Positions 1 through 62,503 of a stretch of DNA of 62,503 nucleotides are shown here, piece after piece. The notes beneath the pieces are model-generated. The model had not been told where the DNA came from and ran no database searches. It saw only the letters and a list, made by a program, of their open reading frames with translations. Origin of the DNA: a virus; the IMG/VR virus record IMGVR_UViG_3300047157_000129, positions 1 to 62,503 of that record. One strand, given 5' to 3'. Numbering within the stretch: the first letter of the stretch is position 1; every line of letters begins with the position of its first letter. A program made the position numbers and the translations under genes.

Positions 1-127
1 GACTTGCAAATAAGGAGTTTTTTGCGTTTGTCACACATACGAACGTAAACATGACAGTTCTGCACACTAAAACAAGCGCATTACTCGAAGCACCCATTCC
101 CCCTTTTTGGTTTCGCTTTATACTTAC
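1..127. repeat. terminal direct repeat, left copy
   Basis: Bases 1-127 are identical to 62377-62503. A repeat of exactly 127 bases at contig ends is what a de Bruijn assembler with k=127 leaves on a circular path, so the simplest reading is a circular or circularly permuted genome of 62,376 bp. A true short terminal redundancy cannot be excluded from sequence alone. The repeat lies in the divergent gap between the minus-strand arm and the plus-strand virion arm. Confidence 0.97.
119..124 (+). promoter_or_regulatory. possible -10 box (TATACT) upstream of first plus-strand gene
   Basis: TATACT lies about 47 bases before the ATG at 171, in the divergent intergenic region. No convincing -35 hexamer is at the expected distance. 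It is listed because the same hexamer recurs upstream of several other plus-strand transcription units here (1762, 4703, 24334, 39584, 50065). Confidence 0.35.
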
Positions 128-1797: not shown

Positions 1798-2910
1798 ATG
1801 AGCGAAGAACTGTTACCCCAAGACTCTACCCCTGCTGTTGAATCTACCCCTGTTGAGAGCAGTGCGTCACCTGAGACTGTAGAGCAGACGAGTACCGAGA
1901 ATGTTGAAGCAGCACCCACGCCATCTGTTTGGGACTCTTTCAAAGGACTGCCTGACTTCGAAGGTCAGGACGAGCGTAGCATTGCTCAAAATCTTTATGA
2001 GTCGTTTGAGCGTGAAAAGGCTGCAAGGCATTCTCTTGAACAGTATCAGCAGCTTATTCCGTATGCTCAAGAGTACATGGAGCACAAGGATGCGTTTGAG
2101 AGCTGGCGTAATGGTCAGGCTCAACCGCAGCAACCTCAACAGCCTGCGCGACAAGCTCCTCAAAAGGAAGAGCGAGCCCCGTGGTTGGGGCCAGAAGTTA
2201 AGCCTGAGCACAAGCGTTACCTTGTCAAGGACGAGAATGGGCGAGATGCGATTGCTGAGAATGCTCCGTTGGATGCGAGGTATTCGCTAGAGAATTACTT
2301 ACAGCATCGAGCAGACTTTGCTCAGAACTTCTAAACAATCCAGAAGAGGCGTTGGGTCCGATGATCCAGCAGCAGGCTCAGCAGATTGCTCAGCAGATGA
2401 TTGAGCAGGAGCTTGGTAATCGTGACGAGCAGTCAATATGTTCAGACATTAGAGCAAGAAAACGCAGATTGGCTGTATGAGAGCAGACGGCAAGACTCCG
2501 ACTCAAGAAGGTTTGGCTGTTCAGCAGTACATTCAGCAAGCTGCCGAATGGGCATCGAACAGGTGCCGAGCAGCGTTGGCAATACGCCACAGCAATGGTT
2601 GAAAGAGACCTGTTAAACAGGGTTCGCCAAAACGAAGCTCAGCAGCTCAAAGTCCCAGCAGTTTTCCCAGCAATTACCGCCTCAACAAGCAGCAGCTCCA
2701 GCACCGCAACAGCCCCAGCAGGTACCTCCCGTTGCACAAAATTCCGCTGAAAAGGACATAGAGTTCTTAAGAAGGGAAGCTTCTCGTAACCCGAGTCGCG
2801 GGGCTGGTCAACCGAATCAAGGTTCATCCGATGGGGGTGGACAATCGTTTGAGGCAGAGGTTGAAGTCACAACTTCAAAGAGACAACTTAATTTGAAAAG
2901 GACAGACTAA
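1798..2910 (+). CDS. head scaffolding protein, frameshifted in this sequence
   Basis: The intact first part (1798-2334, 178 aa) is acidic and Gln/Pro-rich, typical of capsid scaffolds directly upstream of a major capsid gene. After the stop at 2332 the same low-complexity Q/A/E-rich protein continues in other frames to a TAA at 2908-2910 that overlaps the capsid ATG (TAATG). Frame changes fall near 2333 (one base lost), 2433, 2482, 2561 and 2655 (one base gained each). The restored protein would be about 370 aa, ending in a basic tail. Each segment reads as sensible protein, so this is probably an intact gene damaged by sequence or assembly errors. A decayed gene is the alternative. Confidence 0.72.
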
Positions 2911-4031
2911 TGGCGTCAAGCACTGATTGGGCAAGGACGATTGGTACGACCTTAGTCCTTCATTTGAAGGAAGAAGAGCTAGCTACTTTTCGTAAGTACA
3001 AGGTCTTTGCACTTCTTGAAGGCAGCGGTCGTGTCGCAATGAATCAGGGAGGTCGTGGCTTCGACTGGGAAGTCAGATACCGTAATCAACCTGTGACCTC
3101 GAACACAGGTGAGTCAGCGAGAGTATTCGCTCGGCACAACCTATGGCAGCGAGCCAACCTTCCATATCGTGGTTACAGCGTGACCGATATGGTAACAAAA
3201 CGGGAGATGCTCGAAAATCGTGGAGTTTCCCAGCTCATCGACGTAGCCGGTAAAATGGCAAGTCGTTTCAAGAGTCTATGCAAGAGCAGCTTGGCCAAGA
3301 GATTTACGTTGACGGGAATCTTCCCGGTAACGAAAACCGATGGCATGGTCTTGAGTCTATCTTCGGTGTAAACGGTTCCGTTAACATTGACGACTGGGGC
3401 TCACGAGACAACTGCACGAGCAGAAGATCCATTCCTCTGGCCAGATGACATCTATGCTGGTCTTAGCACAGAGCTTGGTGCTCTTGGTGGTGCACAGCGA
3501 GAAGCTGGCTCATGGCCATATGTACCAGTGATCCAGAGTATGATTACTACTCTCCACTGGTAGTTAACTACAACTCTAGCTTCTTCGGTGGCGCAACAAC
3601 GTCATGGAAGGATCAGTGCATCGAAGCCATCCGCGAGGGTGTCCAACACGCCAAGCGAAACGACACGAAGGAATCACAGATTGATCTCGTGTTGCTTAAC
3701 AGGAAGCTCTACATTGACTTCCTCAATCGCTTAGACAGTCGTGAGCGAGCAATCGTTACGAAGACTGCAGGTCTCGAAGCTATGGCTTCGGCGATGTAGT
3801 CGAAATGGACGGCATCGAAGTTTCGACCGAGTACGCCATTCCATCCGACACAGGGTACGCCTGTCCATCGGAAACATGGAAATGAAGTGCATGGAAGGCC
3901 AGTTGATGACTGGCGAAGGTCCTTACTACAACGAAGAGCTTCAAGCGCATCGTTACGCTGTAAGCGTACTTGCCAACTTGAAGTTCAAGAGTCCACGTAA
4001 CTTTGTCAAGTTCTCACCACAACCTGCTTAA
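2910..4031 (+). CDS. major capsid protein, frameshifted in this sequence
   Basis: Position after the scaffold, length (about 374 aa when restored) and composition indicate the major capsid protein. The reading starts at 2910 and first stops at 3371. The protein continues in other frames through 3512-3799 and about 3862-4031. Shifts fall near 3270, 3400, 3520, 3777 and 3860. Restored segments include EIYVDGNLPGNENRWHGLES after the first shift and NYNSSFFGGATTSWKD after the third. The final frame ends in TAA at 4029-4031. The changes are mixed single-base losses and gains, some in short homopolymers (AA before GAG at 3270; GGGG at 3396-3399). An intact essential capsid gene in the real phage is the likely truth. 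Confidence 0.75.
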
Positions 4032-4049
4032 GAAGAGGAAAGATAAGCA

Positions 4050-4431
4050 ATGTCAACTTTAACTTCAGATCCGAAGTTTGATCGCGGCAAGACGCTTGGC
4101 ATCAACGTCGCGTATTATGACTCGGTAAATCAACCACAGGACTTGCAGGTTGGTGACGGTCTGTCGGTGATTGGGCAACACTCGGTATTCCGAGATGAGA
4201 ACCCAAGCACTGGAGCACTGTACAGCAATTTGACAGTCGAATGTGTCGCAGTAAAGAATGTCGGTGCCGATGTTCTTCAGTGCGGCGATACAGTTCAGCT
4301 TGATCCAACAGACGCACGACCACTTGGCGACAACTGAAGGTGCTGACGCAACCCTTTACGGGATTGTTGATGAGTACCTCACAGCACCTGTCAAAGTAGG
4401 CGAAGTCTGCTGGGTAGTAGTCGACCTCTGA
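4050..4431 (+). CDS. capsid decoration/stabilisation-like protein, one frameshift
   Basis: The small protein (about 127 aa when restored) follows the capsid gene by 18 bases with an AGAGGAAAG Shine-Dalgarno. It reads from ATG 4050 to a stop at 4337. A single extra base near 4326 accounts for the break, because the next frame continues ATTEGADATLYGIVDEYLTA to a TGA at 4429-4431. Small beta-rich proteins immediately after the major capsid protein are usually head decoration proteins in tailed phages. The assignment rests on position, size and composition, not on a recognised domain. Confidence 0.6.
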
Positions 4432-4749: not shown

Positions 4750-5418
4750 ATGGAAACACAAGTTTGTAGATCGTGCGGTGAAACCCTTCCTCACGAGGAC
4801 TTTGGTTTTACTGATAAAGGCAATGTGAAAGGCACGTGTCAGCCATGTCGGGTCAAGAACGCGGCAATCGCCAAAGAGGTGAAGAAAGCCCAGACGATGG
4901 AAAGTCTGGAGAAGGAGAGCGTATCTACGTTTCTGAAAGCAGCCTCCAAAGGCGGCGAGAATGTCCCCCACATCTCGGAATTACTGGAACGAACAATGAC
5001 ACTCTTTGGCGGGAGTGGTGGTTTCGCTCAGGCTCTGGTGAAACAATTCTTCGATGCGACTCCGGGCAGTGCAGCTCGGACCCGAATCTTGGAGACGCTG
5101 ACAAAGCTAACAGTCCAGACGTCGGAGATGGGCGCCAGTAAGAAGCCGTTGGAGTTGTGGTCAGATGACGAACTTGAAGGTGAATTAGACAAGCGTCTGA
5201 AGACAATGGCAGCCACATGGAGGGTTATAGATGCCAAGCCAGAACAGCCAGAACTTCTCGGGGTTGAGTCAACTCCAGAACCCGAAGAGTACGACACAAT
5301 CCCAGAGGGATCAGCTTTTAGAGATACAGGCGGAAATATCCCAGAGGTCGATCGAAGCGGTGAAGATGTACACACCGAGTTCGATTCAGGAGGAGATGCA
5401 CAAGAGCACGGCGAGTGA
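4750..5418 (+). CDS. putative terminase small subunit with N-terminal zinc ribbon
   Basis: The 222-aa product begins with a treble-clef or zinc-ribbon-like pair of CxxC motifs (residues 6-9 and about 30-33), then a helical middle and a strongly acidic C-terminal tail. It lies directly upstream of, and overlaps, the large terminase, the usual place for the DNA-recognition subunit. The zinc ribbon resembles those of phage HNH-associated proteins, so a different DNA-binding role is possible. The ATG has no Shine-Dalgarno and begins 8 bases after the T run of an intrinsic terminator. Its last 188 bases overlap the large-subunit gene in another frame. Confidence 0.55.
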   Translation: METQVCRSCGETLPHEDFGFTDKGNVKGTCQPCRVKNAAIAKEVKKAQTMESLEKESVSTFLKAASKGGENVPHISELLERTMTLFGGSGGFAQALVKQFFDATPGSAARTRILETLTKLTVQTSEMGASKKPLELWSDDELEGELDKRLKTMAATWRVIDAKPEQPELLGVESTPEPEEYDTIPEGSAFRDTGGNIPEVDRSGEDVHTEFDSGGDAQEHGE

Positions 5419-6916
5419 AGTGCTCGTAATTGGCGGTAATAGATCTGGTAAGTCACTGTCGACATTCATGGAGGATGCGCGTGCGGCAACAGGCCAAGAC
5501 CCCTACAAGAAGTACCCTGAAGAAAACGGGAATCTGTGCATTATTGGCAGGGACTGGAAACACATTGGTATGGTCGTGTATCCAATGTTGTTTAAGGCTG
5601 GTGCGTTTAAGATCATTAAAGATCTTGATACTGACCAATGGCGCAGCTACAACCCATCGCTCGATGGCGATCGCTCAGACGATGCCAAGCCAGCGCCTCC
5701 CATGATCCCTCAAAGATTCATTAAAAAGATATCGTGGCTTTTAAAATCATCATCATACATACAGAGCTGTGAGTTACATAATGGATGGACAATATACTTT
5801 TTCTCTTCGGAGGGCGACCCGCCACAGGGCTTCCAAGCCGATAGAGTCCATATCGATGAAGATATTGCAAACGAACAATGGCTCCCCGAGATGCAGGCGA
5901 GGCTTGCAGACCGCAAGGGCGTGTTGGCATGGAGCGCCATGCCGCATTCAAAGAATGACGCATTACTTGGGTTGTCTGAACGGGCAGACACTGCGGTGGA
6001 AACGGGGGACACGACGCGGGATATTGAGAAGTTCGTCTTACGATTCCTCGACAATCCGCACATCGATGAGGAGGAGAAGCGCAAGAACGTTGAGAGATGG
6101 AGCGCGCTGGGTAATGACGTATTACGGATGCGAAGTGAGGGAGAATTCGTCACCGACTCTATCTTGGTCTTTCCTACCTTCTCAATGAGCGTGCATGGTT
6201 ATGACCGTGCTGCATTACCACAGAATCAAGTCCCCGATGACTGGTGCCGTTATGTTGCGATCGATCCCGGACACAGTACTTGTGCTGCTCTTTTTGGTGC
6301 TGTGCCTCCTGATGGTGATACTCTTTTGATCTATGACGAGATGTACATTAGGCAATGTACGGCTCAGATGTTTGGTGAGATGTTTGCGTACAAAACAGAA
6401 AACCAGCAGTTTCATGCGTTTTTCCTTGACATGCACGGTGGTCGTATCCGTGAGATTGGCAGTGGTCGTCTGCCGGCAGAAATATACGCAGAACAGCTAC
6501 GTCAACGCGACATCTCGAGTAGAATAAGCGGACATTCATTCATAGCAGGAAGTGACGACGTGCAAGGACGCATAGCAGAAACACAACGATATTTGTATGT
6601 TCGTGGCGAGACAGGTACGCCACAGCTTCGTGTCTTGAGAGGTGCGTGTCCAAATCTTGAGCGAGAGTTAAAGCGCTACAAGAAGAAAACGCAATACATC
6701 GCGGGAGCCATGCAAGTCACAGACCAACCAAACACGAAGGGTGATTGTCATGCTGCTCAGTGCATGGAGTATCTATGTGCTGCGCGCCCGCGTTATCACA
6801 CCCCGATAGTAGAAACAGCAGAAGAAGAGCATTGGTTAGTGAAGCATTATCAGCGTTTGCGTAAGGAGCGCAGGCAAGAGACAAAGAACTATATAAACCT
6901 TTCGCCCGGAGGATAA
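5231..6916 (+). CDS. terL: terminase large subunit
   Basis: This 561-aa ATPase/nuclease packages DNA through the portal. Walker A GGNRSGKS is at residues 68-75, Walker B with catalytic acid (VHIDED) near 206-211, and an RNase H-like nuclease with acids in AIDPGH (Asp345), IYDEMY (Glu370) and FLDMHG (Asp400). The length fits the family. The start at 5231 has a strong GGAGGG six bases upstream (5219-5224), which means a 188-bp overlap with the preceding gene. An alternative start (Met46 of this reading) would remove most of the overlap but loses that ribosome site. Confidence 0.95.
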   Translation: MPSQNSQNFSGLSQLQNPKSTTQSQRDQLLEIQAEISQRSIEAVKMYTPSSIQEEMHKSTASEVLVIGGNRSGKSLSTFMEDARAATGQDPYKKYPEENGNLCIIGRDWKHIGMVVYPMLFKAGAFKIIKDLDTDQWRSYNPSLDGDRSDDAKPAPPMIPQRFIKKISWLLKSSSYIQSCELHNGWTIYFFSSEGDPPQGFQADRVHIDEDIANEQWLPEMQARLADRKGVLAWSAMPHSKNDALLGLSERADTAVETGDTTRDIEKFVLRFLDNPHIDEEEKRKNVERWSALGNDVLRMRSEGEFVTDSILVFPTFSMSVHGYDRAALPQNQVPDDWCRYVAIDPGHSTCAALFGAVPPDGDTLLIYDEMYIRQCTAQMFGEMFAYKTENQQFHAFFLDMHGGRIREIGSGRLPAEIYAEQLRQRDISSRISGHSFIAGSDDVQGRIAETQRYLYVRGETGTPQLRVLRGACPNLERELKRYKKKTQYIAGAMQVTDQPNTKGDCHAAQCMEYLCAARPRYHTPIVETAEEEHWLVKHYQRLRKERRQETKNYINLSPGG

Positions 6917-6918
6917 TC

Positions 6919-7278
6919 ATGAAAGCCCCAGATCTCAGAGTTGGTGACACCGTTGTTTTTTACCCTGATCCGCATACTGAACAGAATCCCATGCTTGGCT
7001 GGGCTTTAACGCCTATCCGCACAAACGACGCTGCTAATTTACTGGTTTACACCCCTGAAGCTGGCTTTGTAGAGAAGGTAGCGGTTCGCTGGCGGTATTC
7101 GGAGGACATTGAAAAACGCATGTCTGTTCGCGCAATGGGCGGCTGGGATCTAAGTCCTGTCATGAAAGACATGGAGAAAATCAGAGATATCAAGTTAAAC
7201 AGCATGGTGGCGTCCGAAAAAAGGGCTGTAAAGGACAAGAAGACTGTAAGGAAACCCGCAACAGCAAAGGCTAACTAA
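6919..7278 (+). CDS. hypothetical protein between terminase and portal, 119 aa
   Basis: The gene starts two bases after the terminase stop with GGAGG in the terminase C-terminal codons as ribosome site, and its TAA overlaps the portal ATG (TAATG). The N-terminal half looks like a small beta-barrel (VGDTVVFYPDP near residues 8-18), the C-terminal half is helical and lysine-rich. I do not recognise a family. Translational coupling on both sides implies it is made with the packaging proteins. Confidence 0.8.
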   Translation: MKAPDLRVGDTVVFYPDPHTEQNPMLGWALTPIRTNDAANLLVYTPEAGFVEKVAVRWRYSEDIEKRMSVRAMGGWDLSPVMKDMEKIRDIKLNSMVASEKRAVKDKKTVRKPATAKAN

Positions 7279-9401
7279 TGGTCCAAGTTCAAACTGGCAT
7301 ACCGCTTGCTCCTACAAGTCAAGTACCAAAGTCCGCCGACAGTCCTGATGAAGTGCTGAAGTATCTCACTCGAGGCTGGCTTGACAAGATTTCAAAGGCA
7401 TACCGTCACAAGAAGTCATTTAACGATGACGCTTGGGAGGCCCGTAACTTCTTTGATGGGGATCAGAATTGGTTCTGGAAAGAGCAGTATGCTCGCAGTG
7501 AATATGGCTATAACCGCGCGATGTCTCCGCCGGGATTTCGCATGCAGATCAACAAAGTGTTTGAAGCAGTTAAGTTGTTTGGCTCTGTTATTTATCACCG
7601 GAATCCAGTGCGAACAGTAACGCCTCAACCACTGCCTATTGTTCCACCTGAAGCTGTCGGGATCAACATGAGTGACCCGATGATGGCGCAACAGTACGAA
7701 CAACTTGTAAACGTTGTCAGTGCTAAAGCTGGCGTGCGTGATATTGTTGCTGACTTGATGGGGCGTGTGTTAAATTACACACCAAATGAGTTTGATTTAA
7801 AAACGCACAGTCGTCGTGCAGTAGACGAAGGCATCATAACAGGGATGGGTCTGTGGTGGACCGAACTGATGACGATGCCAAATGGTCGGCGGTTTGTCGG
7901 TTCGTTTGCCGACAGCGTTGACAATTTTCTGATGGACCCTGATGTAACAGAAATCGAAGATATTCGCTGGTGTGCGAGAAGGTGCATTCACCCTATCCAT
8001 GAGGTAGCAGAAAAGTATGATATTCCCGAAGCTGCTCTTAGGGGCAACGTAGACAAGCAAGGGGCTCAAAATGCACGTTCGCAAGAGCAAGTTGTTTTCG
8101 GTGACTATGACGGGACCGGCAAACGCACGAGTGGTCCAACTGGAAAGACAAACGATTTATGTGTGTATTGGAAGATATATTCCAAAACCGGAATGGGCGA
8201 TCGACTTAAGGATGCGCCGAAGGATATAAAGGGTGTCTTTGATGGTATTGGCGAGAACTGTTACCTTGTTGTAGCGGAGGGTGTTGATTACCCGTTAAAC
8301 ATCAAGACTGCCATGCTTGGTGAGGAAGTAAATCCAGAGAGTGGTGTTCCTGATTCTTTATTTACTGCAGTGCAGTGGCCTATTCCGTTTTGGGCTGATG
8401 GCGCCAACGGCTGGCCTTTTACTGCGTTTCAACCACATCGCAAGCCGGGATACATCTGGCCGATTAGTCACATCAAGCCGGCAGTGCCAGAGCTACGATT
8501 CTTATGCTGGGCGTATTCGTTCATGGCACAAAGAGTAGCTACATCCTGCGAAACACTATTAGGTGTTAGCAAGGCCGCCGATCAAGACATCAAAGATCAG
8601 ATCCTGTCGCAGTCAGAAGGTGGGTTCAAGATTGTAGAAGTCAGCGAGATGTTGGGGCGCAGTGTCAACGACATCATCAGCGTCTTTCAGCTACCCAACG
8701 TAACTGGTGAAATCTGGCAGGTTATACAAGCTGTGACTGACTTGGCGGACAAGCGGCTAGGTATGACTGAGTTGGTCTACGGCATGACAGACAAGCAGAT
8801 CCGGTCAGCTACAGAAGCATCTGTAAAGGTTGATCAGATTAGCATTCGTCCAGACGACATGGCTGAGTGCCTAGAGAACTCAATGACATGCCTCTCAAGG
8901 AAAGAAGCCATAGCTACTCGTTGGCTTTTAACTGGAGAAGACCTTGAGCCTATTATTGGTCCTATGGGCGCAGCGGCATGGCAGCAGCATGTTATGCAGA
9001 TGAATCCTTTTGAGGTCGCTCGTGAGTTTGATTACACGGTAGAGGCAGGCAGTGCCAAGAAGAAGAACAAGAGCGCACGTATTGAGCAGATGAACGTAGC
9101 GGTTCAGACGCTTGGTCCAGTGCTACAAGGTCTTATACCGTCTGGAATTGTTGAGCCATTTAACTCATTGATGCGTGACTGGGCTGAGTCGATGGACTTG
9201 GATGTAGAGCAGTACTTAATACCTGCGCCACCGCCACCAGATCCAATGGCGCAACAAATGCCACCGGAAGGCGCTCCTCAAGAGCAGCCACCGGCAGAGC
9301 AGGCTCCACCAGCAGAAGAACAACAGATGACAGAAGAGGAAATGATGCAGCAACCTCCACAGCAGGTTCCAGCTGAATTGCAGCCTCCAATGCCAATGTA
9401 G
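7278..9401 (+). CDS. portal protein
   Basis: At 707 aa, this is the head-tail connector through which DNA enters and leaves. Evidence is its place two genes after the large terminase, its size, a portal-like N-terminal region (EARNFFDGDQNWFW near residues 54-67) and a long helical middle. The last 75 residues are Pro/Gln/Met-rich low complexity, as in many podovirus-type portals. It is coupled to the upstream gene by a TAATG overlap. Confidence 0.88.
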   Translation: MVQVQTGIPLAPTSQVPKSADSPDEVLKYLTRGWLDKISKAYRHKKSFNDDAWEARNFFDGDQNWFWKEQYARSEYGYNRAMSPPGFRMQINKVFEAVKLFGSVIYHRNPVRTVTPQPLPIVPPEAVGINMSDPMMAQQYEQLVNVVSAKAGVRDIVADLMGRVLNYTPNEFDLKTHSRRAVDEGIITGMGLWWTELMTMPNGRRFVGSFADSVDNFLMDPDVTEIEDIRWCARRCIHPIHEVAEKYDIPEAALRGNVDKQGAQNARSQEQVVFGDYDGTGKRTSGPTGKTNDLCVYWKIYSKTGMGDRLKDAPKDIKGVFDGIGENCYLVVAEGVDYPLNIKTAMLGEEVNPESGVPDSLFTAVQWPIPFWADGANGWPFTAFQPHRKPGYIWPISHIKPAVPELRFLCWAYSFMAQRVATSCETLLGVSKAADQDIKDQILSQSEGGFKIVEVSEMLGRSVNDIISVFQLPNVTGEIWQVIQAVTDLADKRLGMTELVYGMTDKQIRSATEASVKVDQISIRPDDMAECLENSMTCLSRKEAIATRWLLTGEDLEPIIGPMGAAAWQQHVMQMNPFEVAREFDYTVEAGSAKKKNKSARIEQMNVAVQTLGPVLQGLIPSGIVEPFNSLMRDWAESMDLDVEQYLIPAPPPPDPMAQQMPPEGAPQEQPPAEQAPPAEEQQMTEEEMMQQPPQQVPAELQPPMPM

Positions 9402-9445: not shown

Positions 9446-9997
9446 ATGAAATTGCCACATGATATTGCTAATGCTCCGGGATGGGTTCAGGCCCATTATG
9501 TATCCATGATCGAAGACGGTCAGGATGAGAAGTTTGCTGAAATGTGCGCTTTAATGCAGCCTCCGGGAACGGGTCAATCGGAACGTGCATTCATGGAAGG
9601 TCGGAACAACGGCGAATGGTTGAATAAGCTACCTCGCCCACAGGCTATGCGCATGTTAAAAGCGGCGCGTGAAGCGGGTGTTGATCCTACAGGGAAGTAC
9701 TATTTTGGCGGAATTGCAGATAAACGTGGAATATTTGACCCGAAAGCATGGGTCTCAGATGCACATGACGTCAAAAGGGTGGCTGAAGAACGCGGTTTAG
9801 ACGTAGATGGCAGCGTAAAGCATCGTTCATCTGGTCGCCCAGCTGACAAGAATCAGGACGTTCCACTCGCAGCAGACATCGTTAAGAGAGAAACAGCGCA
9901 CGAGCTACTCAAAGACCCTAGCCTATCCAAGAAGGAAGCACGTCGCAAAGCAATCGACAACGTAACACCACACTGGAAGAAAAAGAAAAATGGCTGA
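9446..9997 (+). CDS. hypothetical protein after portal, 183 aa
   Basis: I chose the ATG at 9446 because GAGGA (9436-9440) is six bases upstream. The longer reading from 9410 has no ribosome site and would translate the conserved leader motif. The product is soluble, with a mixed helical N-terminal half, a segment around KYYFGGIADKRGIFDPKAWV, and a basic C-terminus ending in poly-lysine. No domain is recognised. It overlaps the following giant fibre gene by 8 bases, so it probably belongs to the virion operon. Confidence 0.78.
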   Translation: MKLPHDIANAPGWVQAHYVSMIEDGQDEKFAEMCALMQPPGTGQSERAFMEGRNNGEWLNKLPRPQAMRMLKAAREAGVDPTGKYYFGGIADKRGIFDPKAWVSDAHDVKRVAEERGLDVDGSVKHRSSGRPADKNQDVPLAADIVKRETAHELLKDPSLSKKEARRKAIDNVTPHWKKKKNG

Positions 9998-12900
9998 CAA
10001 GATTCAGATCAAGCGTAGCAGTGTAGAGGGCAAGAAGCCAACACCTGAGCAGTTGGCAGATGGGGAATTAGCACTCAACCTCAAAGACAAAAAGATCTAC
10101 GCAAAAGATTCTGATGGTGTAGTGCAAGAGTTTCCTGCTGTAGACGCAGTGAACGTAGGTGTTGAGAGCGTCAACGACATCACTGGCGAAGTCGACATCA
10201 ATGGATCCGACAACATATCCGTCACGAAGTCTGGCCAGAACCTGACTCTTGACGTCAAAGACACTGTAGCGCTGAAGACTGACGTTCCTGCACAACTCAA
10301 TCTCATCGAAGGTACTGGGATTGATATTGCGTCAGACGGTAGCAACAGAACCATCACCAATGAGATCACTGATCTTGGCGATCTAGATTCTGTTGTCATA
10401 GATGACAATACCGGGATAGCCGAAAACTCTGTTCTGACATTTACAGACGGCAACTGGGTTCCGGGTACGGGCGGTGGTTCTTCTGACGTAGATGAACTAA
10501 ATGATCTGAGCGATGTCACCCTTGACGGTGTAGATTCAAATCAGATCATGCAGTACTCCGGCGGTCAGTGGAGGAATGTAGATGTTCCGGGAGCCGCTGG
10601 ACAGACTACGGTCAATGGACTATCAGGCGCAGTGTTTCTTGAGGGAACTGGTAGCGTATCTGTCTCCAAGCCAGATCCAAACGACGACAACAAGATACTT
10701 ATCAATGGCACTAGCGGGGTTCCAGAAGCAAACAGTGATGGCAAAACTTATGGGCGCAAGGACGCAGCTTGGGTAGAGATTGAAGCTACAGGTGGCGACG
10801 AGAATGTCCAATCGAACTGGACTGAGACTGACAAAACTTCCGATTCGTTTATTCTAAACAAGCCGTCTAAACTGTCGGACTTTGAAAACGACCTAACTCT
10901 TCCTCCAGCCGACGCGGAGAAAAACGTACAGTCCGACTGGGATGAAGCGACCACTACATCTGATGCGTATATTCTGAACAAACCAACGAACCTCTCAGAG
11001 TTTGAGAACGATCTGACTCTCCCGCCATCGGACGCCGAGAAGAATGTTCAATCGAACTGGACGGAAGCAGACACTAGCAACGATGCGTTTATTCAGAACA
11101 AACCAACGAATCTGTCGCAGTTCAATAACGACATCACGATTAGTGCTGATAACGTAACAGACCTGCCTGTCACTAACCTTGAGTCCGGCAACGAGCTGAC
11201 GCTGAATGTTAAGGACGAAGGCAATGGCACTTGGACGCTGACTGCGCTGAATCAGGGTGGCAGTGGAGGCGGCGGTGGAAACCTCAACTTGATTGAGGGG
11301 GACTGCATTAGCATTGATGCCGTAGAGAATGGGACAGATTCGAATGTCACCGATATTACTATTGGTCTTGCTTCTGACTGTGATTCGATTACATCCAACC
11401 TCCCTATATCCAGCACAGATAACAAGGTTACGTTATCAGATGATAACGGTTCATTTCAAATAGAGACTGGCGACCCCACAGCAGACCCAAGCACAAAGGA
11501 AGTTCGGGTAGTTGTAGACAGTATTGGCAATGTCACGATCAAAGAAAAGCTAAGAGGTGACGGGAACTATACGCCCCTAATTGAACTTTCAGCTGGACAT
11601 GAGGTCAACGTCACCAAGTCACGTTATTACAACTATTACGCAGTTGACGGCAGCACTACCCATCGGGAAATTATCTACAACGCAGATAGCGAAGCAGCTT
11701 GTTCATTCTTAGTCTACGGGAAAACATACGCATCTGGTTTGCCTGTTGGCATACCTGTTGGCGAACAGCCTTCTCATTTTAAGTCTTCGCATGACCTTGT
11801 GCATGAAGTAAAAAGAATGCTTTGGTGTAGCAGTTCCACTAATGCAGAGCCAGACGTTGTTATTGACTGCACCACAGACTCCAACGATCCTGTTCTGAGG
11901 GTTATACCGAAGGGCCACATTGAAGCGTCCCGCATCCAAACCGACACGATCACCTCAAAGGATGCTGCTGTTGGTGATGCACGAATTAATTTTGATTCCA
12001 AAGACATCAACATCTCAGCAAACGATTTTGATGGCATCATAAGTCTGCGGAACAACTCCAGCGGCAATGCAAACATCTTTAATGTCAGCGGCAATGCTTG
12101 GTCGAGCCAGTGGGGAACTTTTGGCGGTGGTTACAGTTGGTGGGGCCAGAACTTCGAAGTAGAAGAAAATGGTATAGATTTCAAGCCGCGATACACGGGA
12201 ACGTCTAACATAGGCTCGTTCTTAATGTCTCCAATGCGGGACGCTAAATGGGGTCTTCTTCAAGGCTCTATGCGGGTGTACCCACCAACACCTAGCGGAG
12301 ACCAGCCTTCAATTCCTCAATCAGAAATGCCTCAAGTCATGGCATGGGAAGCCCTTGATGGTCGCCTAAGCGTTGGCCCCACTTCGGCTCTTACTAACAC
12401 TCGCTTGTACACCTCTGGCCCAGACTTCATCGTAAATGGAGCAATATCGGTTAATGCAACTGGTTTGTATGCACAGTATGATTTACAAAACCCAACAGCG
12501 GCTAACATCGGGGGTTACTACTGGCAAACAAAAGACAACAATATTTATTTAGGCGTTGATACTGTTGGCGATGGGAACACAGATGATTATGAATGGCAAC
12601 TTGTAGACCGTAATGAACAAGACGAGAATGGTAATTTTGTTTATCAATCATCCATAGGCACTCACAATTATTACGCAAGAACATATATCACATGCGATCA
12701 TAATTTAACATCATGGCATGATGGCTTATATGTCGAGTCTCCTTCGTGGTCTGCTACTGGCTCGATAACAGGGAACCCTAACCCTTCAAACCAAGCATGG
12801 CGAATGGGGAACTACGCTGGTGTTCGTGTGCAAAATTGCACACTTTCAAAAACAGCAGGAACAACAGCAAGTTTCTTAGCCAATCAGAATGCAAGTTCTG

Positions 12901-15683
12901 CTGGTAATTGTTACTCCTTCTACGCAATGGGTACGGCTCCAGCAAGGTTCAACGGGGGTGTCCAAACCGACACAATCACCACAAAGGATGCTGCGACAGG
13001 TGATACTAACATTCAGTTATCGGGAAGCAAAGTTGGCATTGGCTACCAGACAGGTTTGCCGGGATGGGACGCTTCACTTCTAGTACGGGCACAAGACAAC
13101 AAGTCCGGTCAAACCAATCCAGACGATGACGAGACAAGCTGGACAGAGCATCCCGGTCTTATTATTGATTCAAGGAATCCAAACAGGTTAATCAATAATC
13201 AGTGGACTGCACAAGGAACTACTACCATTACGGCAGTGCCGCCAAACTCTGATTACAGCCAGCCTGTTTCTGTTTACAGAAGTTCTGGAAGCTATGGAGG
13301 AGACCATGTCTTTGCCGCTGGGGGGCTATCAGGATGTCCAACTAAAAATGAGTATAGTTTCTGGATCGACCGATCCGGCAATCTTTATGCAAATCCAGAT
13401 TATGAGCCATCTTCAAACAACTCCTTAGTCACTAAGAAGTGGGTAATAGACAACGCTGGTGGCGGGTTCCCAATCGAATCTGATCCTGATGGTCGCGTTC
13501 TCATTGAGGCAGACGATGCCAATGGCATTCTCACAAGCTGGGTAGATAATACTCAGGGTGATACAGACCCTGACAAGAATGTGGCTGATAATGATGTATA
13601 TGTCTGGTATGTAAATGACAAGCCAGATTCTAATCCTCCTTATGGGTCGCCCGGAGCACCTGCGCTTAAGCTTACACGGCAAGGCGTTCTTGAAACTGCA
13701 TCCGGCACCTTGAAAAATAGTCGCAGTGACCTTACAGGACAGGTTACTGGATTCGGTTTAGAGGGTATTCGTAATTCCGTATTCTACCCACACGTTCAAG
13801 TTGCTCACGATTCTCGTGGCGACACAGGGCTTTATTGGGATGAAGTGAACTATCACTTCATGAAAAAAAGAAATCCACTCGATACGCAGGGAGCATCTCC
13901 GTGCGAGTTGGGCGACAACACTTCGCAAGGCTGTGCTTGGGAGTCCTCATTGTTTACCATCCGTGATGGTGGGCTTGATGGCGCAGTACACATTACGACC
14001 TCTGCTGATTACACACCGATTGACGATTACGATATTGTCACTAAGAAGTATTTTGATGACAACCGTGTCCCGCTTCCTAACCCAGACAATCCTCTTCCAC
14101 CAGTTGGTGTTGGCGCTGGCTACACATGGGAGCAGCTAGAACGAACTCCGGGACTGTATCTGTCAGCCGTGTACGGAATTAACGGCATCTATTCCATAGT
14201 TGGCTTTAGCGACATGCAAGTTGCGGCTATAGAAGGTGGAATAAGGATGGATGCTCAGTGTTTCTGGAGCACTGACGGAAGGGAGTGGACTGAAGGTTTT
14301 GTTGGAGGTGCTTGGGTTTCAGCCAACAATGGAGAAAATCTGTATTCTTTACCGACACCAAATAATAAATACGGTAAGTTCTGTGACGGAACGCAAGTAA
14401 TATTTACAGGAAATGCGTTTACCTCAACAGGGAAGACGTGGCAAGGTTTCGATACTGATCGGGCCTTTCAATACCGATCTGACAGCTACATTGGCGAAGG
14501 AGTTCCGTTTTTCTGGGATTCTGGCATTTCGGCAGATCGAGCTGTAGATCCTAGTACTGGAAGCTATCTGGGAACCAACTGGCCAGAAGGCGCATGCTGG
14601 ATTACAAGCCGGATGTACGCCATTGAGGATCTGGAAGACGACGACACAAATGACATGATCAGCATCGTCAACAGCGCCGCGACTACTAGAACTGACGTCC
14701 TACTAACCAACAGTCGTGATGTTATCTGTCCAAAGGTTTTCTTCTCTCTGAATGGGAACGATGACTACTATTTCAACACGAATAAGCTGTACAAGCCACT
14801 TCAGTCAGAAGCTGCTATTAAAGCTGCGAACAAGACTGATGCGCTTACTACCTACTTTGAGCCTCTACATTCACTCCAAGAATGCGCCGATGCTTGTTGC
14901 ACTCCTGACGGCAAGGTAGCTCTTACTCTTGATAGTGATAGCAATCAGTTTTACTGGTGGGTTCATAAGCGAACTACTTTGACTGTTCCTTCTGACTTGT
15001 GGCTAGAAACAGGAGTTTGCTGTGCGTATGACAGATCCAGCGGATACTTTGCGGCTGCAACGGCTGACAAAGTGCGCGTATACGAAGCGCCTTCCACTTC
15101 CGGGTTTAATGCGTATGGCGGTCGGCTAGTTAATACTTACACGATACCGCAGGCTGCTGAATGGACGCACTTAAGCATATCCGGTGGCGTCTACATTCTT
15201 ATGAGCAAGTCTGGTGCGATTGCAAGGCTCGACACTAACAATCCACTAAACGACACGTTTGAAATGATTGGGGCTAATTCCCCAGCAGTTTTCTCTGCCA
15301 ACCCAGTGCTGGCCGGGACAAATGGACGGTTCTTGGTTGCAGGTGGTGAAGACGTTGACGGCCTGCCTGATTTTGGTCGCATGTACAACCCACGCACCGC
15401 AGACCTTCCCCCTGCTGGCCCACCCGACGGTCCACAGCGGTATGCGTGGTCTGGTGGTGACAATAATACGGGAGGCACTACCACTGATGATGTTGATCTT
15501 ACCGATCCAGTAGACACTGGTGGAGATAAGCGTTCTGCCAGAAAGCTACTGACAACCCAGAAGGACGCTAACGAATACTTTGCAGAAGAGATTGAAAAAC
15601 GTGCGATTGTTGTAACTCTCACTCAGGCTGAGTACGACGCCCTAAGTCCACCTGATGAAAATACCTTGTACCTGATTACCTGA
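9990..15683 (+). CDS. giant tail fibre / adhesin, 1897 aa
   Basis: The N-terminus (IQIKRSSVEGKKPTPEQL, then GELALNLKDKKIY) matches the short virion-attachment domain common to phage fibres. Residues about 271-384 are three 40-residue tandem repeats (QSNWTE..SDSFILNKP..L..FENDLTLPP). Two further similar blocks (QTDTITSKDAAVGD and QTDTITTKDAATGD) occur near residues 650 and 992. The C-terminus carries the common fibre ending LTQAEYDALSPPDENTLYLI. The middle is beta-rich and Asn/Gly/Ser-rich. It very likely forms trimeric fibres for host recognition. It is one uninterrupted frame of 5.7 kb, which contrasts with the broken capsid genes. Confidence 0.88.
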   Translation: MADKIQIKRSSVEGKKPTPEQLADGELALNLKDKKIYAKDSDGVVQEFPAVDAVNVGVESVNDITGEVDINGSDNISVTKSGQNLTLDVKDTVALKTDVPAQLNLIEGTGIDIASDGSNRTITNEITDLGDLDSVVIDDNTGIAENSVLTFTDGNWVPGTGGGSSDVDELNDLSDVTLDGVDSNQIMQYSGGQWRNVDVPGAAGQTTVNGLSGAVFLEGTGSVSVSKPDPNDDNKILINGTSGVPEANSDGKTYGRKDAAWVEIEATGGDENVQSNWTETDKTSDSFILNKPSKLSDFENDLTLPPADAEKNVQSDWDEATTTSDAYILNKPTNLSEFENDLTLPPSDAEKNVQSNWTEADTSNDAFIQNKPTNLSQFNNDITISADNVTDLPVTNLESGNELTLNVKDEGNGTWTLTALNQGGSGGGGGNLNLIEGDCISIDAVENGTDSNVTDITIGLASDCDSITSNLPISSTDNKVTLSDDNGSFQIETGDPTADPSTKEVRVVVDSIGNVTIKEKLRGDGNYTPLIELSAGHEVNVTKSRYYNYYAVDGSTTHREIIYNADSEAACSFLVYGKTYASGLPVGIPVGEQPSHFKSSHDLVHEVKRMLWCSSSTNAEPDVVIDCTTDSNDPVLRVIPKGHIEASRIQTDTITSKDAAVGDARINFDSKDINISANDFDGIISLRNNSSGNANIFNVSGNAWSSQWGTFGGGYSWWGQNFEVEENGIDFKPRYTGTSNIGSFLMSPMRDAKWGLLQGSMRVYPPTPSGDQPSIPQSEMPQVMAWEALDGRLSVGPTSALTNTRLYTSGPDFIVNGAISVNATGLYAQYDLQNPTAANIGGYYWQTKDNNIYLGVDTVGDGNTDDYEWQLVDRNEQDENGNFVYQSSIGTHNYYARTYITCDHNLTSWHDGLYVESPSWSATGSITGNPNPSNQAWRMGNYAGVRVQNCTLSKTAGTTASFLANQNASSAGNCYSFYAMGTAPARFNGGVQTDTITTKDAATGDTNIQLSGSKVGIGYQTGLPGWDASLLVRAQDNKSGQTNPDDDETSWTEHPGLIIDSRNPNRLINNQWTAQGTTTITAVPPNSDYSQPVSVYRSSGSYGGDHVFAAGGLSGCPTKNEYSFWIDRSGNLYANPDYEPSSNNSLVTKKWVIDNAGGGFPIESDPDGRVLIEADDANGILTSWVDNTQGDTDPDKNVADNDVYVWYVNDKPDSNPPYGSPGAPALKLTRQGVLETASGTLKNSRSDLTGQVTGFGLEGIRNSVFYPHVQVAHDSRGDTGLYWDEVNYHFMKKRNPLDTQGASPCELGDNTSQGCAWESSLFTIRDGGLDGAVHITTSADYTPIDDYDIVTKKYFDDNRVPLPNPDNPLPPVGVGAGYTWEQLERTPGLYLSAVYGINGIYSIVGFSDMQVAAIEGGIRMDAQCFWSTDGREWTEGFVGGAWVSANNGENLYSLPTPNNKYGKFCDGTQVIFTGNAFTSTGKTWQGFDTDRAFQYRSDSYIGEGVPFFWDSGISADRAVDPSTGSYLGTNWPEGACWITSRMYAIEDLEDDDTNDMISIVNSAATTRTDVLLTNSRDVICPKVFFSLNGNDDYYFNTNKLYKPLQSEAAIKAANKTDALTTYFEPLHSLQECADACCTPDGKVALTLDSDSNQFYWWVHKRTTLTVPSDLWLETGVCCAYDRSSGYFAAATADKVRVYEAPSTSGFNAYGGRLVNTYTIPQAAEWTHLSISGGVYILMSKSGAIARLDTNNPLNDTFEMIGANSPAVFSANPVLAGTNGRFLVAGGEDVDGLPDFGRMYNPRTADLPPAGPPDGPQRYAWSGGDNNTGGTTTDDVDLTDPVDTGGDKRSARKLLTTQKDANEYFAEEIEKRAIVVTLTQAEYDALSPPDENTLYLIT
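10800..11138 (+). repeat. three tandem 120-bp repeats in fibre gene
   Basis: Units begin near 10800, 10917 and 11037 with a period of 120 bases. They encode about 40 residues each with the core QSxWxExxxxSDxFIxNKPxxL. The copies have diverged at synonymous and some other positions, so this is an old protein repeat and not an assembly artefact. Such repeats usually form the fibre shaft and can change copy number by recombination. Confidence 0.85.
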
Positions 15684-26291: not shown

Positions 26292-26576
26292 ATGAAAACT
26301 GAAAACGACATTGACAACATGGATGATGACGAACTGACACCAGCGCAGTTGCGTCGACGCATTAAAAAGCTTCGTCAGAAACTCTCTGATAAAACAGAAG
26401 ATGAAAAAGACAAAGAAGCTGATTCCCAGAACAAGGACCGCGAAGAGCTAGCTGACCTTCATCACGAAGGCAAGCACAAGTCTGATAGCTACGAAGACGA
26501 AGAAGATGCTGTCACAAACTTTGACGAAGACAAGCAAGACAAAAAAGAAGACAAGTCTGACAAGAAGGAAGACTGA
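26292..26576 (+). CDS. highly charged small protein, 94 aa
   Basis: More than half the residues are Asp, Glu, Lys or Arg. The C-terminal third is Asp/Lys repeats. It is likely disordered or coiled-coil. It ends in TGA overlapping the ATG of the giant 2272-aa protein, so it is co-translated with it. It could be an assembly chaperone for that protein; this is inference from position. Confidence 0.72.
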   Translation: MKTENDIDNMDDDELTPAQLRRRIKKLRQKLSDKTEDEKDKEADSQNKDREELADLHHEGKHKSDSYEDEEDAVTNFDEDKQDKKEDKSDKKED

Positions 26577-29500
26577 TGGGATTTCGCGCTCGCAACAAAG
26601 CACAAGTGGCGATGTACAACCAGATCGCCAACGACATTCGTAGAATTACGGACGACACGGTGAAAGGTCCAAACTTTCATCCTGATCAGCTTCCTCAGCG
26701 TGATTTTAATATGTTGCTTGAAGCGACACTAGATGACCTGTCGCCAAATGCAAAAAAACAGTACTCTAAATTGCCTCCAGAAGAGCAAGAGAATCTAAAG
26801 GCTGATTTGTACAGGGAGGTTGTATTTGGCGAGAAACCTCAAATTGAGGGTGTTCCAAACGCGCCAGACCCAAACAGCAAAGCGGGCGTAACAGGAGATG
26901 TTCAGACGGACGAGCCTCCTGAGCCTCAGTTTGGTGCGCCTGCAACAAAGACAAATCAGGCTCCAGCACAAGTAGTTGGAGACACAACAGACGCAGACGG
27001 AGAAACTGTCAAGCAGATTGCTGATCTTCCAACAGATAAGCCCGGATCTGGTATTTCGTCTTCAGGTGTTTCTACTTTTCCACGTGACCAGAAAATTCTT
27101 GATAGCACTCAGGAACTGCTGGATGGTGGCGAGTCTTTACTAGACAGCATTGAGGAGGGAACTGCTGTTAATCCCAATCAAATCAGACGAGACTTATCAA
27201 ACTTTGTGAGTCGTTTGAGTGATGCGCGTGAGGAACTTAAAAGCACTACGATGAGTGCCAGTTTTGAGGATGCTCCTAGATTGCAACGTGCCGCAGAGCT
27301 ACGTAAACGCATTGATCAAATAGAAAAACGTATCAATGACGGAGCACAAGGAAGCGTTGATCTGAACGCCCCAGATGTCAGCACTAACATGGATGACGTT
27401 ATTAACGTATGGGCTGATAAGGTTGGCGATAAGATTATTGAAGAGGATATGTCTCCCGGAGCACAGGGCTTGCAAGACTGGGCGGAAACAGAGTCCGATC
27501 TTGCGATGGGTGGTGGCGGCGACAAACCACCAAAGGAAAAATACAGGGTAGCTTCTGGTACGTCCGGCGATGCCACCAATGACAGCATTATAGCCGACTC
27601 TCGCATTGCGTCACCAGATGAAGCGATTGGTGAGAATGTTGAGTTACTTGGCTCACCTGTCTTGCTTGAAGATGGGTCTGGTCAAAGCAAGTCATTGTTC
27701 AGTTTTGTTCCAGCAGGCGATGACACTCGTTCGTTGATGCCAGAAGGCTACCAGCCAGCGCGTGTATTTGTTCTTGGAGATGTTGTTCCGCATGCAGTGG
27801 ATCCTAGTAAGGCAATCATTAAGTTTGGAACAGACCACTACATGCCTGATGCGGGCGGATTCCGTAAGCTTGAACCGGGCGAATGGAATGATATCAGAGG
27901 TGAATATAAAAGAGAAATACTTGCGACAGATCGTGACGCCTCATACGCAGCAGCTTCAGAGGCTCAGGATCGGCTTGTAGAACAGAACACTAACAAAGGA
28001 ATGCTTCCTAACCCTTTACAGGGTGAAAACAAAGCAATCAATGATAGGTGGAATCGTGAAGCAATTAGTGAGCGAGAAGTTAACCAACTAGGTGAGGTTA
28101 CAGAAGCTGGCGATCCACAAGCAACGCTATTTGTTTACGATACGAATAGGGGTGGGTTTGTTAAGACTGACCCATCAGTTGCTGAAGCCGACAAAGTTCC
28201 TTTGCAGCAGCGCGTTTACGTACGTATTCGTCCACAAGACGCTACTGACGTGGTTGACCGAAGCGTAATCAAAGAGTCCTTAAAGACTTCTCTTGGCGTC
28301 CTTAGCGATATGCTTCTCACGGAAGTTAGAAAAAGGCATCCTGCACTGGACGCTTCGGGCCTATCGCCTATATCACGCAGCAGCAAACCCAACTCATTGG
28401 AAACGCATCGTGGGGCTTCTCTCGGTACAGCCGGAGCTAATTTGGATCAAGGTAGAGCAGCAGCTCAAGACTTGGCAAATATGCTACGCGCTGTTGGTAC
28501 ACCAGAGACTCGCCAGCTCTTAGAAGAGTCTAATGCTACAAACTTTCTGTCTGGCTTCAAGACTCGTCAGGATCGTGGGAAAGACATCCTGTCTCTTTTC
28601 ACAGACAAAGACGGCACACGTTCTTATGCAACCGATGCACAAGGAAATGCCATAACTGATGAAAATGGATTGCCAATTACCATCAGCAGACAGCTTACAG
28701 GTGACGATCCTGCTGTTTCTGGCGTAAATCTCCCAGCAGGATATCTTGACACGCAACGTCCAAAAGATCTCGATCTTCAAGATCAAGAAGTAGTGATCCG
28801 CAAAGTGGGTGAATACCTTACTGTTGATGAGCAGATCAAGCAGTTAGAGGATCTCGGGCAAACAGACAATCAAGCGTACGCGGATTTAAAGTTACAAAAA
28901 AATACATTTGAATTAGAACTTGCTCAGCTAACAGACTCAAAGAGTCATCAAGATTTAATCGACAATATTTTAGACACGTTGCTATACAACAATCTAAAAG
29001 GTTCTGTTGATGGCACAACTAAAAAACGAGTTGATGGATCAGGTGCGCCTACAGCAAATAGCGGTTACACCGTAGAAGGCGTACCAACAGGACAGATTGG
29101 CCCAGATGGTAAGCCAATAATGACGACGCCAGCTCCGTCATCCGTTCCGGAGTCTATGCGTGGATTTCTTGTATCTGAACGTGAAGGCGGGGCTTCAACT
29201 GTAGGCGATGTATTTGAGTTACGACAACGACTTGAGAGAGCTGCTGACACAAGTAATAACACTGGCACTGGCGTTCGCATCAGCGATGAGGACGTCAAGT
29301 TCCTTGATGTTCCTAGTGCGCCTCAAGCAATCGCTGGTGCCATGAGAGACCGTTTTGACGCAGTGACATCAAAATCATTGCAGGGCTCTTTCTTTGATGA
29401 GTACAAGGGTTTAGTCAATGAAGGGATTCAGGACGTTGAAGCGCTAGGTCAAATTGGCAACACGCTAATGCGGAATGGCTTTGCTCCAACAGAAAACATC

Positions 29501-32500
29501 ATACTTGCAGCAAAAGCCAAGCGAGATCGTCTAGCCAGAAGGCTTGAGGAAGCGCAACTAAAACTCAGGGATGACGAAGCAAAGAATGCAATTCAAGTAG
29601 TAGGTGATCTTCCAATATCGCCCGAAACACTTGACCAAGACAGAAGAAGCATCAAGGAGCTTACGGAAGCCTTCAACGAGTCTCGTCGTGTTCTTGGTGA
29701 AATGTTGGAAGCAAAGAAAGAATTCCCTCAGTTTTCTACGGCAGACATTAGTGAGATTGAGTGGCCCGAGAACGCTGCCTCTATCATTCGTGGGTTGAGC
29801 CCTGAAGACAAAGAAATCATTGGCGAAGAACTAGCGTCTATGTTTCGTCGTGGTGAAAGCGACACACTCGGCAATGCAGTCACAGTCCCAGAATCAGTTG
29901 AAGAACTTCTGGAACTGACAGATGAGATTGCGGACTACGATCCTAATCGCGTATTGCGAGACGCACTCGATGTTGCACGTCGAAACTACGCAGAAGCTAA
30001 CAGAGGGTACGAAGGAGGCAAGAGTACGCAGATTGCTGAGGCGAGATCGCGTATCCAATTCATTCAAGACCAAATGAGAAAGCTCAAAAACGGTCAGGAG
30101 TTAGATCCAGAATTTCAGCAACGTATTATGCCGGGTGCGCGTAATAGCAGAACATATGATGATCCGCAGTTCCAAGCATCTACTCAAGACAGAAGTTCAA
30201 AGTTGTTGCGATTGTTTGGCGAAGCATTTCGTGAGCGTGGCGTTGAGATGCCAGCGTTTGCTGACACAAACATGGGGTCACGGCAGGGTCAGGTTAGCAC
30301 TGGAATGCTAGAACGTTACCAAGAACTTCAAGACGATCTCGATCCAAAATACATTGAACAAACAAAATCTGTCATTGCTAGAGACGAAGGTCCGGATCGG
30401 GTCGAAGCTGTTATTCAGGCAAAACGAGAAGAGTTGGCCCAACTCGAAGGCAAGATGATGGAAGCTGCCGATGGCGCTGAAATCAGCAAGGGTGAGTTGA
30501 TTACTCAGATAGAGCAGCAGGAAGATGAATTTGTATCGCAAAGCCTGACAACACTCTTTGCACGAGACGGCAAGATAACGCCTCAGGGTGAAGATGCATT
30601 GGCTATCTTATGGAATGCTGATCCGCAAAGGGAAAGTCTTCCTGACGTCGACCCATTGTCTGCAATGAATCGTATATTCCAGCACTTGAAGGATTGGGGT
30701 AACAACACAAATCCTTTGAAGCTAAGTAGGGCAGAGTATCAAGAGGGTATTGTTGACCTTCTGACATCTAGCTACATGAGGACTAATCTTGGTGCTGGTA
30801 CGGGTGCTGCGGACGTTGCTACTACTTCTAATCCCGCCAACCGTTTTGACACAAACGCGGGAATGAAACAACGAAATCCCGGCGATCCAGAGGTTGGCGA
30901 TACAACTGGCGGTCGTCTGCCAACAGATGGTGACAACACAGCACAGCAGCGTAGCGTTGACGAGCGCCGAACCGATTTCAATAGCGCTAACTTTGCAAAC
31001 AAATACAGGCAGCTTGCAGCAAACAGGAGGCGATATCGAGAGCTACTCCGTGACTTGGAAGGCGCTGATACTCAGGACCGTCTACGGCTGGATTACAGTG
31101 GCAGCGCAATGATCAGGAAGGGGACTGAATATAATCGTGAATGGTTGCAAAACCGTATAGCTAATATTGATGCTGATCTCGAAGCCATGATGCAAGAGTT
31201 TGAGCAAGTCAGTGGAACTAATCCACGTGTTGCAATACAAACACAGCTAGAAGGCGCTGCTCGTCAGACGAACAATCCGGGATTAAGTAATCTTGATAAC
31301 ACACCGGGAGGTGGGCGGACATTTACTATGGACGCTTGGAAAGATCACCTTGATCGCGTACGTACCGCCGAGCCAGAAAACACGGAACGAGCAGCAGCGC
31401 TGCGCAACATGACTGCTATACTCGAAGGTCAACAGCGCGAGCAGAAAGCTATCCGAACTCCAGAGGAAACAGCTGGCATTGTCAATCGTGCTCGGAGAGA
31501 GTATGGCGCAGTACTGAACGAGGATGATTTCGGCAAGTTTGAAGGCATGCTAAATGATCTAGACGCTTTGTACGAGAACCCTCCTTCAACACCTCCTTAC
31601 GAACCACGTGCCAAAGGAACTGACATAGGAGCCGAAGACGCTGAGCCAGAATACACACCAACGGCTCAGTACGCAGACATTTCAATATTGAGCTACGGCA
31701 ACCTGCCTGAAGTACAGAAGCTACAAGACAAGCTGGATGCGATTGACGCTGAGCTAGAGACACTGCCTTCTACGGATATTGGCAAAAGAGACACGCTAGT
31801 CAACCAAAGAAATCGCTTGCAGAACGAAATTGCTGCATCTGTCAGACCGGCTGGTGGAAACGGCACAATCTACGTCAGCGACCCAAGTGCTCGCCGGATA
31901 ATGTCAAATGTTATTGACGGGAACTTTGCTCCGGGACAGCTTGACGTTGGCTCGAGTAGCAATCAATTTATCAATGATTATGTCGGCTACAGTCCGGATC
32001 GTATTGTCGCAGAGCGCCAAAGAATCTTGGACGAACTCAAGAATCGTGATGTCATTGACGGAAAGACTTCGGCAGTAGACGAAGGAGACGTTCGTTCTAA
32101 AGATGATATCAACGAGCCAGATGCGCCAGAAGAAGTGGACACAAGTCTCGGCAGCACCGATGACGAAGCGCTAGATTCAGAACAAGGTGCTGCATACCTT
32201 GATAAAGTTTCAGCTTCTGGAGGAGGCACTGAAGGCACTCAGTTAGGGTCCACTGCTTTAGACGCAAAAATCACTGCAATTCGTAGGCAAATTACCGAAC
32301 AAGGTGGAGACGATGCTGCAAAAGCAACGCTCGGAATGTACGAAGAGTTTCGTGGACGTCTTGAGGCTCTTGAAAAAGTTGAGAAGGGTGCGGTTGGTGC
32401 CGATAACGTTGTGACCCCAGAGTCAATAAATACTCAACTTGTGTTTGTCAAACGAGACGGAAAGGATGTTCCATTCCTTCGGGTTGAAGCAGCTGTTAAT

Positions 32501-55384: not shown

Positions 55385-55750
55385 CTAATTCAAGTTACGT
55401 CCGATAGCGTCATGCATTTGACGCCAGACTTGTCGCTTCTGTTTAGTGATGGCTATCTCAGCGCATGCTAAGAAAGCACCAAACATAACTTTGACGCACG
55501 TGCCGTATGGCATCGTGTTTACATTGTCAACTGAATACATGCCGACAGCGTATGAGGTATGAGACAAAGCACGAATTGCAAAGGAAGCATCAGTTGACTC
55601 TGGTGTTCCTAGTTCGTTATGTGCTTTACGCAACAGTTTCATCTCGTGTTCAAATAACGCTCGACCTAGCCTACGTGGGTTGCCGATGTGCTTTACCACG
55701 AAAGCATTGATGTAGTTTTCGTTGACTTCGATATGTCGCTTATGATCCAT
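55385..55750 (-). CDS. hypothetical protein, 121 aa
   Basis: Start at 55750 (MDHKRHIEVNENYI), overlapping the amidotransferase stop by 11 bases; the longer reading would add an out-of-place hydrophobic N-terminus. Helical and polar, no domain recognised. As last gene of the amidoligase operon it may be a partner or substrate-binding protein. Confidence 0.68.
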   Translation of the reverse strand: MDHKRHIEVNENYINAFVVKHIGNPRRLGRALFEHEMKLLRKAHNELGTPESTDASFAIRALSHTSYAVGMYSVDNVNTMPYGTCVKVMFGAFLACAEIAITKQKRQVWRQMHDAIGRNLN

Positions 55751-56660: not shown

Positions 56661-56669
56661 TTGTAATAC

Positions 56670-62302: not shown

Positions 62303-62335
62303 TACATAGAGAAAACACACTGGGAAAATAGTGGT
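62302..62335 (-). repeat. repeated intergenic element, copy E5
   Basis: Minus-strand core TTTCCCAGTGTGTTTTCTCT then ATGTAG, the most divergent copy, with a CACT/AGTG hairpin. It lies in the divergent region and is upstream of the whole minus-strand arm. Confidence 0.75.
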
Positions 62336-62366: not shown

Positions 62367-62503
62367 ATGATGGGACGACTTGCAAATAAGGAGTTTTTTG
62401 CGTTTGTCACACATACGAACGTAAACATGACAGTTCTGCACACTAAAACAAGCGCATTACTCGAAGCACCCATTCCCCCTTTTTGGTTTCGCTTTATACT
62501 TAC
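62367..62503 (+). other. possible small ORF spanning the circle junction
   Basis: From ATG 62367 or 62370 a plus-strand frame runs through the junction (62376 to 1) and stops at 138-140, giving about 50 aa (MMGRLANKEFFAFVTHTNVN at the start). No good ribosome site is seen. Low confidence, but it would be missed in a linear reading. Confidence 0.3.
62377..62503. repeat. terminal direct repeat, right copy
   Basis: Exact copy of bases 1-127. The remaining stretch 62248-62376 plus 1-170 is the divergent intergenic region of about 300 bases, holding element E5, its leader hairpin and the TATACT box. Confidence 0.97.

Follow-up and report, generated by a model that had tools for sequence, protein, structure and literature searches.

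Frame breaks in the capsid genes of a viral metagenome contig fall within a block of foreign lineage and probably reflect a local assembly artefact

Results

The window analyzed here is the whole virus sequence of record IMGVR_UViG_3300047157_000129, 62,503 bases long. Its first kilobases carry a scaffold gene, a major capsid gene and a gene for a decoration-like protein, with the large terminase and portal genes further on (Table 1). The portal of the window matches PHROG 156 (portal, E 2.2e-10), and the capsid protein of a relative, L004, matches PHROG 9953 (“major head protein”, E 4.2e-8). The scaffold and decoration genes have no match in Pfam or PHROGs, and their names rest on gene order only.

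Table 1. Positions and main characteristics of the features described in the window
Feature	Position	Strand	Remarks
Terminal direct repeat, copy 1	1..127	+	127 bp, exact
Scaffold gene	1798..2896	+	Seven breaks, the first near 2328; frame reading and alignment with relatives
Foreign block	2040..4421		L004/L056/L008 lineage in a contig of L001/L002 lineage; informative-site painting, sliding identity and BLAST
Major capsid gene	2910..4031	+	Five breaks; frame reading and alignment with relatives
Decoration-like gene	4050..4431	+	One break near 4329; C-terminal end lost
Abrupt right join	4417..4426		Block abuts intergenic DNA found after the decoration stop codon in L001/L002; 137 bp dropped
Large terminase gene	5231..6916	+	Intact, L001/L002 lineage (control); 91% protein identity to L001 and L002
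Portal gene	7278..9401	+	Intact (control)
Terminal direct repeat, copy 2	62377..62503	+	127 bp, exact

Three-frame reading of the scaffold, capsid and decoration genes together with alignment to eight relatives revealed 13 frame breaks between ~2328 and 4329, distributed as given in Table 1. They correspond to about six base losses and about seven gains, one of the gains being of two bases. Forward open frames remaining in the window reach at most 178 aa in the scaffold, 153 aa in the capsid and 95 aa in the decoration gene. Homopolymer-type errors were rejected as the main cause, since run shortening is seen in only a minority of the breaks when the alignment is judged by eye.

In close relatives, the same genes are complete. 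The scaffold is a whole ORF of 359–363 aa in L002, L004, and L008, the capsid a whole ORF of 374–380 aa in L001, L002, L004, L005, L007, and L008, and the decoration gene measures 166–169 aa in eight close relatives. We then have the wider set of 132 relative loci, in which some contigs appear twice. Here, tblastn gives a capsid match in one frame at 119 loci and no match at 13; 116 of these matches contain no stop and three contain a TGA near the C-terminal end, which we read as a shorter end. The decoration protein matches in one frame at 124 of the 132 loci (no match at 8) and the scaffold at 108 (no match at 24). This one-frame count is blunt, because the window's own capsid also appears as one tblastn stretch in which the shifts cancel out; stops inside the matches were therefore also sought, and a compensated shift without a stop would escape the count in the relatives.

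The breaks are confined to this interval. Comparison of the window by blastx with the non-overlapping ORFs of the relatives covered 36,177 bases, of which 34,169 lie outside 2328–4335, and the ~26 kb of the window without a blastx match were assessed only through their open ORFs. No supported frame break was found in the 34,169 aligned bases outside the interval. Two outside candidates were raised by blastx and judged on DNA alignments: near 56665, the one-base gap sits just upstream of a gene start, and the one near 62314 falls in a region near the end of the record where there is no supported gene. Two others, at 7283 and 61412, came from a looser first pass with 75 loci and were gone once shadow ORFs had been removed. 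Elsewhere in the window, five long ORFs of 975 to 2,272 aa are open, as are the terminase, portal, and tail genes. The contig is thus sound apart from this single stretch, and the probability that all 13 events fall by chance in a block of 2,382 bp, if spread evenly over the covered bases, is ~4e-16. The initial annotation had proposed eleven single-base shifts (about five lost and six gained bases) restricted to the scaffold, capsid, and decoration genes between 2330 and 4330. The limits and the restriction to these genes stand, while the count was slightly low and one of the shifts involves two bases.

All 13 breaks are located inside a block, from ~2040 to 4421, whose lineage differs from that of both flanks. 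On either side of the block, the window is most similar to L001, L002, and L003, with 82–83% DNA identity after 4417 by BLAST. The stretch from ~1930 to 4421 is closest to L004, L005, L006, L008, and L056 (89–94% identity); in the terminase region, L004, L005, and L008 are only ~68–69% identical to the window. At informative sites, the window agrees with the L001/L002 group up to ~2040; from there to 4421, nearly every such site agrees with the L004/L056/L008 group. The lineage changes abruptly at both borders, near 2040 and 4421, as in a chimeric contig. The left border lies in homologous sequence. The right join does not connect homologous sites, and the 137 bp missing there correspond to ~45 decoration codons that are present in the eight close relatives read. 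An exact 23-mer across the right join gave 0 matches in viral_contigs and a 28-mer across one of the breaks gave none either, in searches from which the window's own or very near records were possibly excluded. By these comparisons, the breaks lie wholly within a foreign-lineage block with an abrupt right join, an aspect that the initial annotation did not contain.

We examined the substitutions carried by the block. In the capsid and decoration genes, at more than 9 nt from the breaks, the window shows 38 differences from L004, 34 of them silent and 4 protein-changing, whereas ~77% of random substitutions in the capsid gene would be protein-changing. The excess of amino-acid-changing substitutions expected of a pseudogene is therefore not seen. 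Over 460 codons, the window has one private codon and no private amino acid; private codons number 7/460 in L004, 15/460 in L008, 28/460 in L056, 46/460 in L007, and 10/386 in L006. In the scaffold part of the window, 9 of 727 sites are private and four of these are protein-changing, the scaffold being more variable in all relatives. The predominance of silent differences, the single private codon and the lack of private amino acids argue that the sequence of the block was under full coding constraint and that the indels were superimposed on it.

The breaks tend to adjoin sites at which the variants differ. Eleven of the 13 lie within 1 base of a difference between L004 and L056, compared to 29% of positions, for a pair that was picked after the contexts had been seen; with random non-viral sequences, 0 of 25 runs reached 11 of 13. 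Four other pairs of relatives place 6–7 of the 13 breaks beside differences (25–34% of positions), and when any variable site is considered, 11 of 13 breaks are adjacent to one, as against 49% of positions. The best-matching relative switches across 7 of the 13 breaks and at 252 of 600 control positions, which is no clear excess. Haplotype painting was not retained as evidence for merging, as dense alternation between variants is seen in the relatives as well as in the window.

The window starts and ends with the same direct repeat (Table 1). Among ten long relatives, two have terminal repeats of 127 bp, two of 99 bp, and six have none. A passage of the CheckV paper states that odd repeat lengths of this kind correspond to assembler k-mers (PMC8116208), and the k list of metaSPAdes is given as 33,55,77,99,127 in the relevant passages of two papers (PMC11584781, PMC7311315). 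Our repeat has the length of such a k-mer, as expected of a circular contig in a de Bruijn assembly, and probably represents the assembly k-mer rather than a biological terminus. This points to a short-read de Bruijn assembly, and the record is probably a contig built at k = 127.

Discussion

The broken capsid genes are almost certainly not a real feature of the phage and not a case of gene decay, as far as the sequence allows us to judge. With a probability of roughly nine in ten, we attribute the frame breaks to a local artefact, introduced during assembly or consensus building, in a capsid module that varies between strains. The initial annotation had favored an error of local assembly, through collapsed variants or through chimeric or low-coverage reads, in agreement with the foreign block, the near-total silence of the capsid differences and the few private codons. 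It had also named strain variation at the capsid locus as another cause, which fits the foreign lineage of the block and the tendency of the breaks to adjoin variant sites. Local assembly errors and chimeric joins are described among the known faults of metagenome assemblies (a passage in Chen et al., 2020, PMC7111523). As described there, a faulty consensus stretch sits in an otherwise sound contig and makes protein-coding genes wrong; the criterion in that passage is read support, whereas the present case is judged from sequence alone.

How could such an artefact arise? The sample may have contained several phages of the same group whose capsid modules had diverged. The stretch from ~2040 to 4421 would then be a composite of these sister variants, merged or used to bridge a gap, and joined inside homologous sequence on the left but abruptly and non-homologously on the right. 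The indels could have appeared through one-base slips at sites of difference during the alignment or merging of the variants, a route that we rate somewhat above even odds within the artefact reading. Thirteen indels within 2.4 kb are more than plain short-read errors would be expected to yield. Off-frame joins do not readily come out of a plain de Bruijn path, so that the merging scenario requires an additional step of consensus building or bridging. The merging would have occurred in such a strain-merging or gap-bridging step. According to part of a review, a modified hybridSPAdes algorithm in metaSPAdes takes strain contigs as its pseudo-reads (PMC8021871), and this could allow sequence of a sister strain to enter a contig where the variants diverge. 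We infer that this step may also make indels, although the relevant part of the review describes neither gap filling nor indels resulting from it.

The main alternative route to the artefact is a long-read patch: in a hybrid assembly, low-coverage and unpolished long reads of a sister phage would have been used to close a gap, and the indels would be plain read errors. We hold this to be possible, though with less than even chances. The 13 breaks in 2,382 bp amount to 546 per 100 kb, near the 474 indels per 100 kb that part of one report gives for long-read-only viral assemblies (PMC6487183), and the frame shifts and shortened genes described there resemble ours. Indels without substitutions also suit such reads, and at that rate it is unsurprising that the first 288 and the last 92 bases of the block are free of breaks (P 0.21 and 0.61). 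In contrast to the assemblies in that part of the report, however, the errors of the window are confined to one foreign block and its terminal repeat indicates a k = 127 de Bruijn assembly. Moreover, random indels should not prefer positions at which variants differ, a test that is itself partly post hoc, and the record carries no sign of long-read use.

An unlikely alternative is a natural exchange of the capsid module in which the right join truly truncated the decoration gene and sequencing errors were added separately. The group does seem to recombine in this region. L004 differs from L005/L056 at 2 of 371 sites of the decoration gene (L004:6676–7046, corresponding to 4050–4421 of the window) whereas one segment of the capsid gene shows 82 and 81 differences over 643 sites. 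This suggests that the decoration gene was recently exchanged between L004 and L005/L056 and that mosaicism of the capsid module may occur naturally. The position of the left border within homologous sequence would also agree with such an exchange. Against it, the right join is non-homologous, it removes codons that the eight close relatives have kept, and the 23-mer across it was seen in no viral contig of a search possibly excluding the record itself.

Real decay, in which the capsid genes of an actual phage or defective element have become pseudogenes, is very improbable. The breaks do stand in the record, and none of the three proteins would survive them. However, drift should have added amino-acid changes to the indels, and the differences are nearly all silent; in addition, the terminase, portal, and tail genes are open and no relative shows broken capsid genes. 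We give slightly less credence still to a more speculative idea in which the block is real DNA: co-infecting phages would recombine in the capsid module by slip-prone template switching, producing many dead genomes, and defective capsid genes would be packaged with the help of intact sisters, often enough to be assembled. Programmed frameshifting or another form of recoding that keeps the proteins whole can practically be dismissed, as we found nothing in its favor, each of these genes is one continuous frame in the relatives, and 13 sites in three genes would, to our knowledge, exceed any known case.

An assembly artefact at this locus has practical consequences. With its terminal repeats, the record would be taken for a complete genome although its capsid genes are erroneous and of mixed origin, and it would mislead capsid trees, gene calls, or recombination studies based on it. 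A simple check can be applied to viral contigs, namely to look for a stretch that differs from its flanks in its nearest relatives and that alone contains indels, without protein-changing substitutions.

The phage itself seems to belong to an uncultured group. The terminases of the nearest annotated phages are only ~25–27% identical over about half of the protein (tblastn, a weak match), and the L004 capsid used as query against the phages collection gave no match, which together make such a group likely. The DNA of the block found no match in the phages collection, relatives of the terminase were sought in genome_contigs and none were found, and a search of viral_contigs likewise gave no relatives for three other proteins of the window. 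Several other genes of the window are worth mentioning. A gene at 26576–33394 encodes a protein of 2,272 aa with no match in Pfam or PHROGs and no relative in viral_contigs by pattern search. At 9990–15683 lies a gene for a likely tail fiber protein of 1,897 aa, which matches PHROG 1699 at its start and carries a Phage_tail_C tip domain at its very end, and a minus-strand gene at 55740–56660 encodes a class II glutamine amidotransferase domain. In some relatives, very long antisense open frames run over the capsid region (L034:513–2819 and L144:3866–5599); these are probably a by-product of codon use.
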